The notes below the pieces were generated by a model that did no database searches, had not been told where the DNA came from, and saw only the letters and a list, made by a program, of their open reading frames with translations. A DNA stretch of 39,719 nucleotides from a virus. The DNA is taken from positions 1 through 39,719 of the IMG/VR virus record IMGVR_UViG_3300034072_000477; one strand, written 5' to 3'. Made by a program: the position numbers and the translations under genes. Below, piece by piece: positions 1 to 39,676 of this stretch (positions are counted from its first letter, which is position 1; the number at the start of each line of letters is the position of its first letter).

Positions 1-14
1 GGCTGCATGTCTGA
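1..14 (+). other. 3' end of a further silent tail-tip cassette (cassette 7, cut by the window edge)
   Basis: The first 14 bases read Leu-His-Val-stop on the plus strand, the same ending as silent cassettes 2 and 3. Bases 1-44 are identical to the reverse complement of 664-707, the junction between cassettes 3 and 4. At least one more plus-strand cassette therefore lies to the left of the window. Confidence 0.75.
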
Positions 15-44
15 CGGTGTGATCGTGTCACTGCAAATGCGGTC
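1..44 (+). repeat. 44-bp perfect inverted repeat, left copy (partner at 664-707)
   Basis: Bases 1-44 equal the reverse complement of 664-707. The repeat covers a cassette end, its spacer and the next head site. Identity stops three bases into the following codons. Confidence 0.9.
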
Positions 45-230
45 CCGCTCGGTAAGTACAAAGCCGACACGCTCAAAAGTCACACCCACAATTACCCGAC
101 TGCCTACTCGGCTGATGCTGGTAGCACCCAGCAGGTTTTTGGTGGCGGGGTCATGGCAACGAGCGCGCCGTCCGGCAGTGCAGAAACTGCGCCGAAGCAC
201 GTGGCCTATAAACCACGCATCCATGTCTGA
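27..230 (+). other. Silent tail-tip cassette 6, inverted orientation (67 aa)
   Basis: This promoterless reading frame has no start codon. It encodes an alternative C-terminus for the tail fibre at 1414-2640: the conserved head VTANAVPLGKYKADT, then SHTHN, a variable centre, and the conserved foot SAETAPKHVAYKPRIHV-stop. It lies on the plus strand, opposite to the fibre gene and to cassettes 1-5. One base separates its stop from the stop of cassette 5 (232-234), so the two are tail to tail. Inversion between its head site (29-43) and the site in the fibre gene (1604-1618) would fuse this tip in frame to the fibre. Confidence 0.85.
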
Positions 231-231
231 C

Positions 232-450
232 TTAGATGTGAATCCGGGGCTTGAAACTGGTGTGCTTGGGCGCCGTCTCGGCAGTGCCGGTGTAAAGCGT
301 GTAGTTCCCCGTCGTAAGATTTCCCGCCCCATCCGCCGACCGCCCACTAGCACCATCAGATCCGGTATGGGAGTCAGATGTTTGCTGATGGCGATGCGAC
401 TTGACCGTATCGGCCTTATACGCACCGAGGGCGACCGCATTTGCAGTGAC
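232..450 (-). other. Silent tail-tip cassette 5 (72 aa)
   Basis: A start-less reading frame beginning VTANAVALGAYKADTVKSH, with a variable centre rich in Ser, Gly and Asp, and ending GTAETAPKHTSFKPRIHI-stop. The foot differs slightly from its sisters (SF instead of AY). It has the same orientation as the fibre gene. It is separated from cassette 4 only by a short spacer after that cassette's stop codon. No ribosome binding site or promoter is visible, so it should be expressed only after recombination. Confidence 0.85.
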
Positions 451-459
451 ATGGCCGTC

Positions 460-681
460 TTAGATGTGCAGTCGCGGCTTGTAGGCCGTGTGCTTGGGTG
501 CAGTCTCAGCCGTACCGGCGCTGTATGTGGTGGCCACCCCACCGATGTTCCCCCCCCCTCCGCTTTGGTTGAGATAGGCGGCCTTATCCACCACCCCGCC
601 ACTGACGCTATTGATCGAGTGAAGGTGAGCCTTGATCGTGTCGGCTTTGTAGGCACCGAGGGCGACCGCATTTGCAGTGAC
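460..681 (-). other. Silent tail-tip cassette 4 (73 aa) with a G9 tract
   Basis: A start-less frame beginning VTANAVALGAYKADTIKAH and ending GTAETAPKHTAYKPRLHI-stop. The variable centre contains a run of nine G on the coding strand (C9 at 550-558). It encodes part of a Gly cluster and is in frame at this length. A one-base slip would remove the conserved foot, so the tract is a possible second source of variation. Same orientation as the fibre gene. Confidence 0.85.
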
Positions 682-707
682 ACGATCACACCGTCAGACA
701 TGCAGCC
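664..707 (-). repeat. 44-bp perfect inverted repeat, right copy (partner at 1-44)
   Basis: Reverse complement of bases 1-44. It spans the end of cassette 3, its spacer and the head site of cassette 4. Confidence 0.9.
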
Positions 708-909
708 GCGGCTTGTAGGCGGTTTGGCGCGGGGCAGTCTCAGCGCTGCCAGTATTTGCTGTTAAACCTTGATCGCTGCCTCCAGTGGCGTCCGGCAGCC
801 CCTGCGAGCCACCGCCGATGGCATAGGTGACGCGGCCCCGTTGCATGTGTGCATGACTCTTGAGCGTGTCCGCCTTATAAGCACCCAGCGCGACCGCATT
901 TGCAGTGAC
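694..909 (-). other. Silent tail-tip cassette 3 (71 aa)
   Basis: A start-less frame with head VTANAVALGAYKADTLKSH and foot GSAETAPRQTAYKPRLHV-stop. The foot is nearly the same as that of the expressed tip. The 44 bases spanning its stop and the next head site (664-707) recur, inverted and without mismatch, at 1-44. This is the clearest trace of past inversion or duplication within the array. Confidence 0.85.
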
Positions 910-921
910 ACGGCATCAGCC

Positions 922-1122
922 TCAGACATGCAGCCTCGGCTTGTAGGCGGTGTGCTTGGGTGCAGTTTCAGCCGTGCCAGTGCTGCCAGTGGTGGTGGCA
1001 CCAGAAGGAACGTTGTCAGACCCGCCCGCTTGCGCCCCCAGCACGAATGCCTGCGTACTGTGAGTGTGAGCTTTGATTGTGTCGCCTTTGTACTTACCCA
1101 GAGGTACCGCATTTGCAGTGAC
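922..1122 (-). other. Silent tail-tip cassette 2 (66 aa)
   Basis: A start-less frame with head VTANAVPLGKYKGDTIKAH, a short variable centre and foot GTAETAPKHTAYKPRLHV-stop. Its head resembles cassette 6 (PLGKYK) rather than the expressed gene (ALGAYK). The 15-base site is intact at 1106-1120, but the base after it is A where the other copies have C. Confidence 0.85.
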
Positions 1123-1131
1123 ACAGCCACG

Positions 1132-1404
1132 CTAGATGTGGATGCGCGGGCGATAGGCCGTCTGCTTTGGCGCGGTTTCCATGCCCACGCGTGGCGTGCC
1201 GTGAATGCCATCGCTAATCGCGGTGCGAACAAAAGCCTCAGTAGTGGACTGAAGCGTATTGCCACTGACTGCCGGCCAGTTTCCAGGCGACGAGACGACG
1301 TTGTTGATGGTTCGATCATTCGAGGGCGCGGTGAAGTGAGCGTGCCAGTGGCCTTGCCCCGTGTCGGCCTTGTAGGCACCGAGCGGGACCGCATTTGCAG
1401 TGAC
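1132..1404 (-). other. Silent tail-tip cassette 1 (90 aa), adjacent to the fibre gene
   Basis: The first cassette after the fibre stop codon, separated from it by a few bases. It is the longest copy: head VTANAVPLGAYKADT, then GHWHAHF in place of the usual SHTHN-type motif, a centre with no visible similarity to the other tips, and foot METAPKQTAYRPRIHI-stop. The longer, His-rich centre suggests a differently folded receptor-binding tip. Same orientation as the fibre gene, so a single inversion cannot express it; two successive inversions would be needed. Confidence 0.85.
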
Positions 1405-1413
1405 ACGGCCGGG

Positions 1414-2640
1414 TTAGATGTGAATCCGGGGCTTGTAGGCGGTTTGGCGCGGTGCAGTTTCGGCGCTGCCAGTCGAGGACGTCGGCGTTGTTCCAGGAGA
1501 AAGGGAGACGTACTGCGCCGAACCCGACGCGCCGGCGAGGCCCCAGTTGACCACGTTGTGGGTGTGGCTCTTGAGCGTGTCGGCTTTGTAGGCACCGAGG
1601 GCGACCGCATTTGCAGTGTCAGCGTCAGTACCCGTCATTCGGAAGAACTGGTTGCGCAGATCCGGCACCCGGAAGTTGCTCGCATCGACGTCCACGAAGT
1701 TGTGCGTACCGGCCACCCACGAGCCCGAAGCCACCACCAGGCTGTTCTCCTGCGCATAGCCCCACAGGGCAGCGTAGGCAGTCTTGCTCAAGGTCCCGCC
1801 AACAGCATCCACCTCCATCGCCAGCGGCGATTGCGTATGACCAAAGCTGGCGCGACCACACAGAATCGAACGGTAGCCGGTGAAGTAAGCGGTGCTGACC
1901 CACGTCCAGATCTCTTGGGCTTCGATCACCATGATCGGGCCGATGTTCGTGGTCGGGAGCGCGCTGATGGAGTACGCCTGAAAGCCAGACACAATGCCAA
2001 GCGCCGGATTCAGAAGCGCCCACTTGTCCAAGGTCGAGTCGTACTGCAGTTCGAGCCAATGACCGGCGCCGGAAATATCACCCGCAAGGATCGGCAGATT
2101 ATTGCCCTTGAAAATCGGCTTTGCGGCAACGGTGCCATTGTTGGGCGTGAAGGTTGCAGCTGCGGTATTGGCCGCCGCCGCGCGAACCATAACGCTCATA
2201 CCGTTGACCAAAGCAGTGACCGCCGGCGTGAATCCTGCGGTCAGCGCATTTTCTGTGCCGCCTGCGGCCGAGATTTTCGGCGCGTTGATCTGGATGCGGG
2301 AATCGGTCTGGGCGGAATCCAGTGCCCATAGCATCCACTCACCCGGGTTTGCGGCGGGCGTTTTATTGGTGTTCTGTACCAGTGCCTTGTAGGTGTAGCC
2401 ATCTGCACCGATTACGCGGTCGCCGATCTCGTAGGTCTCATCGGATGACCAGTCGGACACGCCGCGACGAGCGAGATAGCGAATGCCATTCATGAGGTAG
2501 TTCTGGAGCCAGTTGAAACGCTGGCGCGACGGCGGCACATTGGTCAACGGCCATCCCGTCTGAATTTCGGCCTCGGTGGGTTGCACCTTATCGCCGGCCT
2601 CTGCCCAGGTCGGAAGGACGGTAGGTCTCGTCAACGGCAT
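1414..2640 (-). CDS. Tail fibre / tail collar protein with exchangeable C-terminal tip
   Basis: A 408-aa distal tail protein, probably the receptor-binding fibre. The N-terminus (about 1-60) is likely the baseplate-attachment part. Residues about 62-106 (YEIGDRV..YTYKAL..TPAANPGEWMLW) resemble a small chitin/carbohydrate-binding (CBM5/12-like) module. Residues about 280-335 (ALWGYAQ..NFRVPDLRNQFFRMTG) are a phage tail collar domain. From residue 341 the protein is a modular tip (68 aa) that starts at the 15-bp repeat and ends GSAETAPRQTAYKPRIHI. It is the last gene of the late operon, two bases after the DUF2612 gene. The bases just before the repeat (TGA on the coding strand) differ from the TGT found in all six silent copies, as expected if the left half-site stays with the expressed gene. 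Confidence 0.88.
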   Translation of the reverse strand: MPLTRPTVLPTWAEAGDKVQPTEAEIQTGWPLTNVPPSRQRFNWLQNYLMNGIRYLARRGVSDWSSDETYEIGDRVIGADGYTYKALVQNTNKTPAANPGEWMLWALDSAQTDSRIQINAPKISAAGGTENALTAGFTPAVTALVNGMSVMVRAAAANTAAATFTPNNGTVAAKPIFKGNNLPILAGDISGAGHWLELQYDSTLDKWALLNPALGIVSGFQAYSISALPTTNIGPIMVIEAQEIWTWVSTAYFTGYRSILCGRASFGHTQSPLAMEVDAVGGTLSKTAYAALWGYAQENSLVVASGSWVAGTHNFVDVDASNFRVPDLRNQFFRMTGTDADTANAVALGAYKADTLKSHTHNVVNWGLAGASGSAQYVSLSPGTTPTSSTGSAETAPRQTAYKPRIHI

Positions 2641-31706: not shown

Positions 31707-32600
31707 ATGAACGCACCTCAAGATCACAGCCACATCCTGAACATGACCGTCGAGACCATCGGCCGCGACGTGCTACAAGCCCTTGTAACCGAAATCAAGC
31801 TGATGCCCGATGTGTGGCCGAAGCTGAGCGAGGCCAAGCAGAACGACGTTATTGACCGCCTGCGCTCCCGTGTTGAGCACAACGTCAAGATGGCCGTGCA
31901 TCTGATCGCCAGCAGCGGCCGCATCGTCGTCGCCGGCGATCTGGACCAAATCACCATCAAGGACGGCGTGAAGGCTGTCGTGAAGTTCGGCGGCAGCGCT
32001 GCCAATCTACACGAGCTGTACGACGCTGCCGGCAAGGCTGTCCTGGTCGTGGTCGCCAACCCGGCAGACCACACCGGCGGCATGGATGGCGTGAAGGGCG
32101 AAGCGGACCAGCGCGGTCTCAACATGGGCCACGAGTACCACGAGAACGACGGCGGCGGCATGCTTGGTGGTGAAGGCGGCGTTGTTGTTGAGGGTGAAGT
32201 GCGCGCCCTGCCCGCTCCTGGCGAAGAGAGCGTGACCGAAGACGAGCTACAGCAGCATTTCGAACTCGGCATGCAAGCCGCTAGCGCTGGCAAACCTGAG
32301 AGCGACTGCCCCACGGTGCGCCATGAGCTCGTCGTCGAGTGGATGCGCGGGCACAAGGCATACCTGTCCGACGAGGAATGGTCTGGCCGGGAGTACACCG
32401 GCGAGCTGGACGACTTGTTCCTGGATGCCGTCGCCTACGTCAAAACGACGCAGGAATGTGCCCCCGCCAAGCTCATGCGTGAGCTGGGCATCGGTAGTCA
32501 GCGCGCCGAATTCATCATCATGCAGATGGCCGTCGAAGGCATCGTGAGCGAGCTCGATGCAGAGGGCAAGCGCACAGTCCTGATCGCAGGCGAGGAGTAA
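31707..32600 (+). CDS. FtsK-gamma-domain DNA-binding protein (297 aa)
   Basis: The last 60 residues (about 238-297: FLDAVAYVKTTQECAPAKLM then RELGIGSQRAEFIIMQMAVEGIV) match the FtsK gamma winged-helix domain, which in FtsK reads KOPS sequences. No translocase motor is present. The N-terminal part has a domain of helices and strands (LVTEIKLMPDVWPKLSEAKQ..), a Gly-rich linker and an acidic region. The gene lies between recT and the SMC-like ATPase. It probably targets recombination or replication proteins to specific sites. FtsK-gamma-only proteins occur in other phages. Confidence 0.72.
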   Translation: MNAPQDHSHILNMTVETIGRDVLQALVTEIKLMPDVWPKLSEAKQNDVIDRLRSRVEHNVKMAVHLIASSGRIVVAGDLDQITIKDGVKAVVKFGGSAANLHELYDAAGKAVLVVVANPADHTGGMDGVKGEADQRGLNMGHEYHENDGGGMLGGEGGVVVEGEVRALPAPGEESVTEDELQQHFELGMQAASAGKPESDCPTVRHELVVEWMRGHKAYLSDEEWSGREYTGELDDLFLDAVAYVKTTQECAPAKLMRELGIGSQRAEFIIMQMAVEGIVSELDAEGKRTVLIAGEE

Positions 32601-38137: not shown

Positions 38138-38375
38138 AAACACCGACATCACGCTCACCAAGCTCGAGCTGGCCAACCTCACTGGCACCGTTCAGCCTGC
38201 GCGCATGGTGAAGTGGCTCACCGCGCGCGACTGGGTGTTCGAAGCGCCGGCACGCCGCGGCGACATCCCCAAAGTTGACAGGGGCTATTACAAGGCGAGA
38301 ATGTCCGGCCAGGTCGCCACACAGCGCCGGCGCGGCCCCAATCTTGACTTCATGACCCGAGCAAAAGCAGCATGA
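38130..38375 (+). CDS. DUF4224 protein (excisionase-like position)
   Basis: An 81-aa protein, ITLTKLELANLTGTVQPARM then VKWLTARDWVFEAPARRGDIPKV, the DUF4224 pattern. It is commonly encoded just before phage integrases and has a MerR/excisionase-like HTH appearance; excision control is inferred. AAGGAG Shine-Dalgarno; overlaps the integrase start. Confidence 0.75.
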   Translation: MAENTDITLTKLELANLTGTVQPARMVKWLTARDWVFEAPARRGDIPKVDRGYYKARMSGQVATQRRRGPNLDFMTRAKAA

Positions 38376-39502
38376 TCAACCGACGCAGACGGCCCGACGG
38401 GCTGCCGTTCCGCACCTATGAGCGGTTCGGCAAGAAGTACTACAGCATCTTCTACAAGAAGCCAGACGGCACTCGTGCATGGAATCTCCAATGCCTTGTG
38501 GCCGATGCCGAGAAGGTTCGTGAGACACGCCGTGAAGGGATCATCAAAGCCCAGCGCATGAACGATGGCGGCCCGATGGAGGGATCATTCGGGGCGCTGG
38601 CGGATGCCTGGATCAAGTTCCAGCGATCCCTGCCGCTTGGCTCCCCGGAGCGCCGTGCAGAATCAACGCTGGACGAGAACGAGCGCGAGATCGCCTACCT
38701 CAAGCGGGCGTTCGGTGAAATGCTCGTGATCGAAATGGAAAAGGGCGACGCCTACGAGTATCTGGATGCCTGCCTGATCGCCGTCGACGAGAATGGCGAC
38801 CCACGCCCTCGGCCCGCCAAGGGCAACAAGGAAATCTCGCTTGCGCGTGTGATCCTTGAGTACGGCGTACGCCTGCGCATGCTCAAGGAAAACCCATTCG
38901 ACGGGGTCGAGAAGCTGCGCACCGTGAAGAAGGCGCACTACGTCGAGGACTACGAGTTGGATCTGGCGGTCGAGGTCGGGCGCGAAATGGGTGGCCCACA
39001 GCACATCGTCGCGCTGGCGCTAAAAACGGCCTATCTGTGCCTGCGCCGCTCGGTCGAGGTGCGCGCCTTTACTCGGCCACAAATCACGGAGGCAGGCATC
39101 GAATGGACCGGCGCAAAACGGCAAGCCGGCCAGATTGAGCAGCGCGGCCTGATTGAGTGGAGCCCAGAGCTGCGAGCAACCATCGACGAGGCCCTGGCGA
39201 TCGAGCGCGGCAAGCTGGCGGGGGTCTGGTACATATTCGGCAACCTGCGCGGCGGCAAGTACACCAAGGGTGGCTGGAAAAAGACCCTGTCGAAGCTGAT
39301 GGACAAATGCGAGGAAAAGGCGGCAGAGCGCGGTATCGAGTTCCGCAAGTTCAGCCTTCAGGAGTGCCGACCCAAGGGCGTGACCGATAAGCTCGGCCAA
39401 GGGCATGGGGACACGATTGACGCGACGTTGCACACGTCGGAGAGGATGGTACGGCAGGTCTATGACCGACGCCGGGTGAAGGTCGCCAAGCCGGCTCGGT
39501 AG
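38372..39502 (+). CDS. int: Tyrosine recombinase integrase
   Basis: A 376-aa integrase. N-terminal arm/core-binding part (GLPFRTYERFGKKYYSIFYK). Catalytic features: Arg in LCLRRSVEVRAF, Lys near GAKRQAGQIEQRGL, second Arg in QECRPKG (Gln at the usual His position), His in LHTSERM and the nucleophile Tyr 364 in RQVYDRRR. It ends 97 bases before the tRNA-Asp 3' end, the usual attachment arrangement. It lies at the end of the CI-controlled rightward operon. The site-specific event is most likely insertion into tRNA-Asp. Confidence 0.9.
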   Translation: MINRRRRPDGLPFRTYERFGKKYYSIFYKKPDGTRAWNLQCLVADAEKVRETRREGIIKAQRMNDGGPMEGSFGALADAWIKFQRSLPLGSPERRAESTLDENEREIAYLKRAFGEMLVIEMEKGDAYEYLDACLIAVDENGDPRPRPAKGNKEISLARVILEYGVRLRMLKENPFDGVEKLRTVKKAHYVEDYELDLAVEVGREMGGPQHIVALALKTAYLCLRRSVEVRAFTRPQITEAGIEWTGAKRQAGQIEQRGLIEWSPELRATIDEALAIERGKLAGVWYIFGNLRGGKYTKGGWKKTLSKLMDKCEEKAAERGIEFRKFSLQECRPKGVTDKLGQGHGDTIDATLHTSERMVRQVYDRRRVKVAKPAR

Positions 39503-39599: not shown

Positions 39600-39640
39600 T
39601 GGCGGAGTGGACGGGACTCGAACCCGCGACCCCCGGCGTG
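39600..39640. other. Likely prophage attachment site end (att core in the tRNA 3' half)
   Basis: The integrase gene abuts the 3' end of an intact tRNA-Asp. Integrases of this type use the 3' part of a tRNA gene and restore it. The exact core cannot be set because the second copy is outside the window. Confidence 0.4.
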
Positions 39641-39676
39641 ACAGGCCGGTATTCTAACCAACTGAACTACCACTCC
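39600..39676 (-). tRNA. tRNA-Asp (GTC)
   Basis: A 77-base tRNA with encoded CCA. Acceptor GGAGTGG pairs with CCACTCC; D-arm with TTCAGTTGGTTAGAA; anticodon stem CCGGC/GCCGG with loop CTGTCAC (anticodon GTC); T-arm with TTCGAGT. All stems pair perfectly. Confidence 0.97.

Follow-up and report, generated by a model that had tools for sequence, protein, structure and literature searches.

A tail-fiber tip array in a temperate contractile-tailed phage as a probable tyrosine-recombinase shufflon

The tail-fiber gene of the linear virus record IMGVR_UViG_3300034072_000477 (39,719 bp, taken whole and called the window here) is followed by an array of alternative C-terminal tips that is very probably a shufflon run by an Rci-like tyrosine recombinase encoded just past the left edge of the window. 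We infer that the window phage has an invertase of its own and that its array undergoes inversion. The tips would affect the choice of receptor, a binding role suggested by their position and variability, and the phage probably switches the bacterial surface that it grips in this way. The features of the window that are discussed below are the following.

1414 to 2640, minus strand: tail-fiber gene (408 amino acids) that carries the expressed tip 0; open frame with PHROGs matches
1604 to 1621, minus strand: recombination site within the fiber gene, TGACACTGCAAATGCGGT
1414 to 1621, minus strand: tip 0 (expressed), 68 amino acids
1132 to 1404, minus strand: silent tip 1, 90 amino acids, site at 1388 to 1405
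922 to 1122, minus strand: silent tip 2, 66 amino acids, site at 1106 to 1123
694 to 909, minus strand: silent tip 3, 71 amino acids, site at 893 to 910
460 to 681, minus strand: silent tip 4, 73 amino acids, site at 665 to 682
232 to 450, minus strand: silent tip 5, 72 amino acids, site at 434 to 451
about 27 to 230, plus strand: silent tip 6, inverted, 67 amino acids, site at 26 to 43
1 to 25, plus strand: foot and spacer at the contig end, identical to window 683 to 707 (tip 3)
38372 to 39502, plus strand: prophage integrase (PHROG_1 integrase)
39600 to 39676, minus strand: tRNA-Asp(gtc) that adjoins the integrase, with an attachment role suggested by its position

The window phage is temperate and contractile-tailed, with tail sheath, baseplate, tape measure, portal, and terminase all encoded in the window. 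Its integrase is a divergent tyrosine integrase (about 26% identical to gp1 of phage KS5) that directly adjoins tRNA-Asp(gtc). The tRNA gene is the likely attachment site and, since integrase and tRNA follow each other at the right, the right end of the window is likely a prophage border. The left end falls inside the tip array, 3′ of the fiber gene. Elsewhere, at 31707 to 32600, the window encodes a phage protein that carries an FtsK gamma domain, a reader of DNA motifs, and also gives a weak, below-cutoff match to ribosome modulation factor; its gene is neighbored by RecT-like, exonuclease, and SbcC-like genes.

The fiber gene matches tail fiber families of PHROGs (best E-value 5e-18), and searches of the fiber against Pfam and NCBIfam yielded no name. 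The structure model of the fiber C-terminus reached a mean pLDDT of 58 and no meaningful fold match, which makes the tip model unusable. All seven tips (66–90 amino acids) are read in the identical frame from their site. The first-pass annotation had described six complete silent tips 3′ of the fiber gene that share their ends, differ in their centers, and lack a promoter; tips 1 to 5 were said to face like the gene, tip 6 to be inverted, and an inversion between the fiber site and the tip 6 site to fuse tip 6 in frame. The array is laid out in this manner. All six silent tips are open and in frame, and their sites and feet are intact. The identity between tips is 46–67% over their whole length and 18–39% in their centers. 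No sigma-70-like promoter was found in 1 to 2700. Beyond the fiber site, five sites lie on the minus strand and one on the plus strand, and the predicted product of an inversion between 1604–1618 and 29–43 is an open fiber of 407 amino acids that ends in tip 6. Within 226 to 1621, all five distances from one same-strand site to the next are divisible by three, so that each tip there shares its frame with the preceding tip's stop codon, which is not so in the related locus L024.

The same site precedes every tip. It is characterized by a 12-bp core, CACTGCAAATGC, and spans 18 to 19 bp with its flanks. Seven sites are found in the window, at 26 (plus strand) and at 434, 665, 893, 1106, 1388, and 1604 (all minus strand), compared to 0.02 expected from dinucleotide shuffles when up to three mismatches are allowed. 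Tyrosine-recombinase shufflons of receptor-binding proteins are recognized by a site inside the fiber gene, which is present here at 1604–1621 within 1414–2640, and by differing C-terminal cassettes behind site copies in both orientations, which are represented by tips 1 to 6 (five minus, one plus). The core codons ACT GCA AAT GCG do not vary among the seven tips, not even at third positions. Synonymous changes begin immediately past the core, where the nucleotide identity across the tips falls, and this pattern therefore points to a core that is constrained at the level of the DNA as well as the protein. The only other exact match to the 18-bp site in viral contigs (L061) lies outside any fiber array and was attributed to chance.

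The proposed reaction would start with an Rci-like tyrosine recombinase that recombines two oppositely oriented sites of about 20 bp. Each event would invert the DNA between the two sites. When the site in the fiber gene takes part, a different tip would be fused in frame to the constant fiber body, and the progeny would subsequently differ in their receptor-binding tips. Tip 6 would be one step away from the arrangement drawn here, while tips 1 to 5 would require an earlier inversion.

Related phages were collected by a protein search with the window fiber, which gave 52 loci. Many of them carry arrays of two to six tips, mostly tail to tail; relatives’ arrays with the same core reach nine sites, and their fiber genes carry the same site class, CTGACGCTGACACTGCAAATGC. 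Within the family, naturally occurring inversion is evident from L016, L017, L022, and L027, four metagenome contigs that come from one related phage and have 99.9% identical flanks. L016 and L017 have one tip in the expressed position, L022 a second, and L027 a third. Between L022 and L017, a segment of 474 bp is 100% identical but inverted, and it is enclosed by flanks of 2873 bp and 533 bp that are 99.8–100% identical. The breakpoints fall inside the sites, with overlaps of 24–27 bp. The comparison of related phages for reordered tips, proposed in the first-pass annotation, has thus returned three different tips among four near-identical contigs, and the view of the array as a multi-site inversion system of fiber tips gains support from these reshuffled tips with breakpoints within sites.

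Instead of a site-specific invertase, homologous recombination or gene conversion might exchange the cassettes where their heads and feet are alike, with a RecT-like annealing protein of the phage as one candidate agent. The phage does encode a RecT-like protein and an exonuclease, and head and foot are common to the tips. The clean inversion between L022 and L017, whose breakpoints lie within about 27 bp at the site, argues against such an exchange, as do the fall in nucleotide identity immediately after the core and a dedicated recombinase clade that tracks the site, and we consider it very unlikely. For the window’s own virus, no contig in another arrangement was found, and the nearest fibers are about 60% identical. 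Among 37 fiber-bearing contigs with a recognizable site, 14 end less than 700 bp from the fiber site, as is expected where reads disagree and assemblers fail to resolve a region.

The left contig end may record a further arrangement of the window array. Positions 1 to 44 are the reverse complement of 664 to 707, that is, the foot and spacer of tip 3 followed by the site. The identity is exact over these 44 nucleotides, site included, and ends at the point where tips 4 and 6 part; the sequence upstream of the other sites shares at most 19 of 25 positions with 1 to 25. This junction is the one predicted for an inversion between the sites at 26 and 665, so that the left end may derive from molecules in an alternative arrangement, with tip 3 at this place. 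A duplicated foot is the alternative reading of bases 1 to 25. Because two silent cassettes in L024 have a common spacer, the junction is not taken as proof of the alternative arrangement. A partial seventh cassette had been proposed at this end: the sequence is there, but it may be tip 3 and not a distinct tip, as 24–25 nucleotides are identical to the foot and spacer of tip 3. The number of tips in the window is a minimum, because the linear virus fragment ends inside the array.

The relatives suggest the class of the enzyme. Of 35 related records, 15 encode a tyrosine recombinase (PF00589), in most cases directly past the array, which is in line with the earlier expectation of a recombinase gene beyond the left edge: the relatives’ gene faces the array, and the first site is 0.36–1.9 kb away. 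The array-linked recombinases belong to one family (A1) and form a fully supported clade in the tree, which does not settle the position of plasmid Rci. A genome scan for relatives of the recombinase returned mostly Burkholderiales. At 16 of the 20 recombinase loci with at least 57% identity, sites are present on both strands within 4.5 kb, compared to none of 13 loci with more distant recombinases and none for shuffled cores. The more distant recombinases of Dyella and Rhodanobacter (38–46%) come without such arrays and were set aside. Three of the remaining four close loci have 10 kb downstream and no two-orientation array; the fourth is short. In L101 and L111, whose recombinases (66% and 76%) fall in the array clade, 10 kb of downstream sequence is available and no core sites lie within 4.5 kb. 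In L107, L161, and L162, core sites occur as oppositely oriented pairs only 24 bp apart, 0.8–4.3 kb downstream of the recombinase; their cassettes are thus head to head, unlike the window layout.

No recombinase of the array clade is encoded within the window, which stops before the position of the relatives’ gene. A frozen remnant would look similar, namely a former shufflon that has lost its recombinase, with tip 0 fixed and the other tips decaying as spares, and the few relatives that retain the recombinase without a two-orientation array fit this explanation. However, six silent tips that are all open and in frame, each with its site and foot intact, would soon decay if selection did not maintain them, and the contig ends inside the array, short of where the recombinase lies in the relatives. 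A remnant is therefore unlikely, and a working shufflon remains the preferred reading. The window integrase was rejected as the shufflon enzyme, as it is unrelated to the array recombinases and lies beside the tRNA gene; on a circularized map, its position and orientation would suit this function.

Classic phage tail-fiber inversions use serine invertases of the Gin/Cin/Min type, with FRphi as a recent tested example (PMC13418256). For the present array, such a system is extremely improbable. A Resolvase-family gene (PF00239) occurs in one of the 35 related records, about 30 kb from the fiber of that record, whereas the tyrosine recombinase is found in 15, mostly beside the array. No serine invertase was found beside the arrays; PF00239 is missing in 34 of 35 records, and the window, which ends inside the array, encodes none.

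The sites fall into classes when 25 arrays are compared. The 12-bp core is near-invariant, and conservation is also high for a G eight bases before it, while the left arm is fixed in the fiber site and variable in internal sites. In 15 of 25 arrays, the site that adjoins the recombinase is near-palindromic (ATTTGCA-C-TGCAAAT), which is never the case for internal or fiber sites; out of five, mirror-arm matches average 3.6 in this site, whereas the averages of the other two classes are 0.7 and 1.0. Tentatively, and with considerable doubt, three site classes can be envisaged in which a palindromic anchor recombines either way, so that cassettes are gained or lost, and asymmetric sites allow inversion only, with fiber C-terminus, array, and recombinase carried from one phage backbone to another as a single host-range module. 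The phages nearest by baseplate protein (L081 to L085, 66–72% identical) share only the fiber N-terminus with the window and have no such array; L083, the only one of them with ample sequence past the fiber, has an ordinary fiber. The C-terminal fiber domain and the array therefore look as if they were exchanged as a block.

These arrays extend tyrosine-recombinase tail-tip shufflons beyond prophages of Actinobacteria, the only ones described in the literature covered. The lineage is coherent across Achromobacter, Bordetella, Herbaspirillum, Pandoraea, Paraburkholderia, and relatives. It appears to be undescribed within the literature covered, since a search, with most subscription journals and preprints outside its coverage, found no account of this Burkholderiales lineage. 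Its site has now been defined, and public data already contain more than one arrangement of a single phage. Draft assemblies and single reference genomes of such phages make only one of several possible tips visible and are prone to breaks within the array, and host-range prediction from one assembled fiber is therefore unreliable for them.

Known systems resemble the array in different respects. The first-pass annotation had drawn a parallel to both p15B Min and Rci; the enzyme class resembles that of Rci and Rin (tyrosine) and not that of p15B Min (serine). Like the present array, p15B Min, Mu Gin, P1 Cin, and FRphi Gin swap tail-fiber C-termini by inversion, but they use serine invertases, none of which stands beside the arrays here. 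The serine Gin shufflon of FRphi decides which host can be infected; only one of its three tips allowed the host under test to be infected, via FhuA (PMC13418256).

The Rci shufflons of R64 and other IncI plasmids likewise switch a C-terminal domain by multi-site inversion, and the relatives’ recombinases are 31–38% identical to plasmid Rci over about 310 residues (E-values of 1e-30 to 1e-45). In R64/IncI the target is the PilV pilus tip instead of a phage tail fiber, and the sfx site GTGCCAATCCGGTNNNTGG, found in pS74, differs from the array core; the combination of sfx and PilV is absent from the array. Within the window, CTGCAAATGCGGT and GTGCCAATCCGGT have 10 of 13 letters in common by eye, which may be chance.

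Rin of Bifidobacterium prophages has been described as the first phage invertase of the tyrosine family that acts on a receptor-binding protein (PMC6109161), and Eggerthella provides a second Rin-type case (PMC8778435). Both Rin and the window combine a constant receptor-binding-protein gene with a set of variable C-terminal cassettes, every one of which follows a short asymmetric site. The relatives of the window phage additionally share with Rin a tyrosine recombinase that flanks the array and is distinct from the integrase, as well as inversions among relatives. The differences lie in the hosts, which are mainly Burkholderiales here, in the fiber, which is of another type, and in the site (CACTGCAAATGC here, TTCCCTAACCC in Rin). 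By this analogy, the window array would be a tyrosine-recombinase tail-fiber shufflon comparable to Rin and thus of a kind that is already known.
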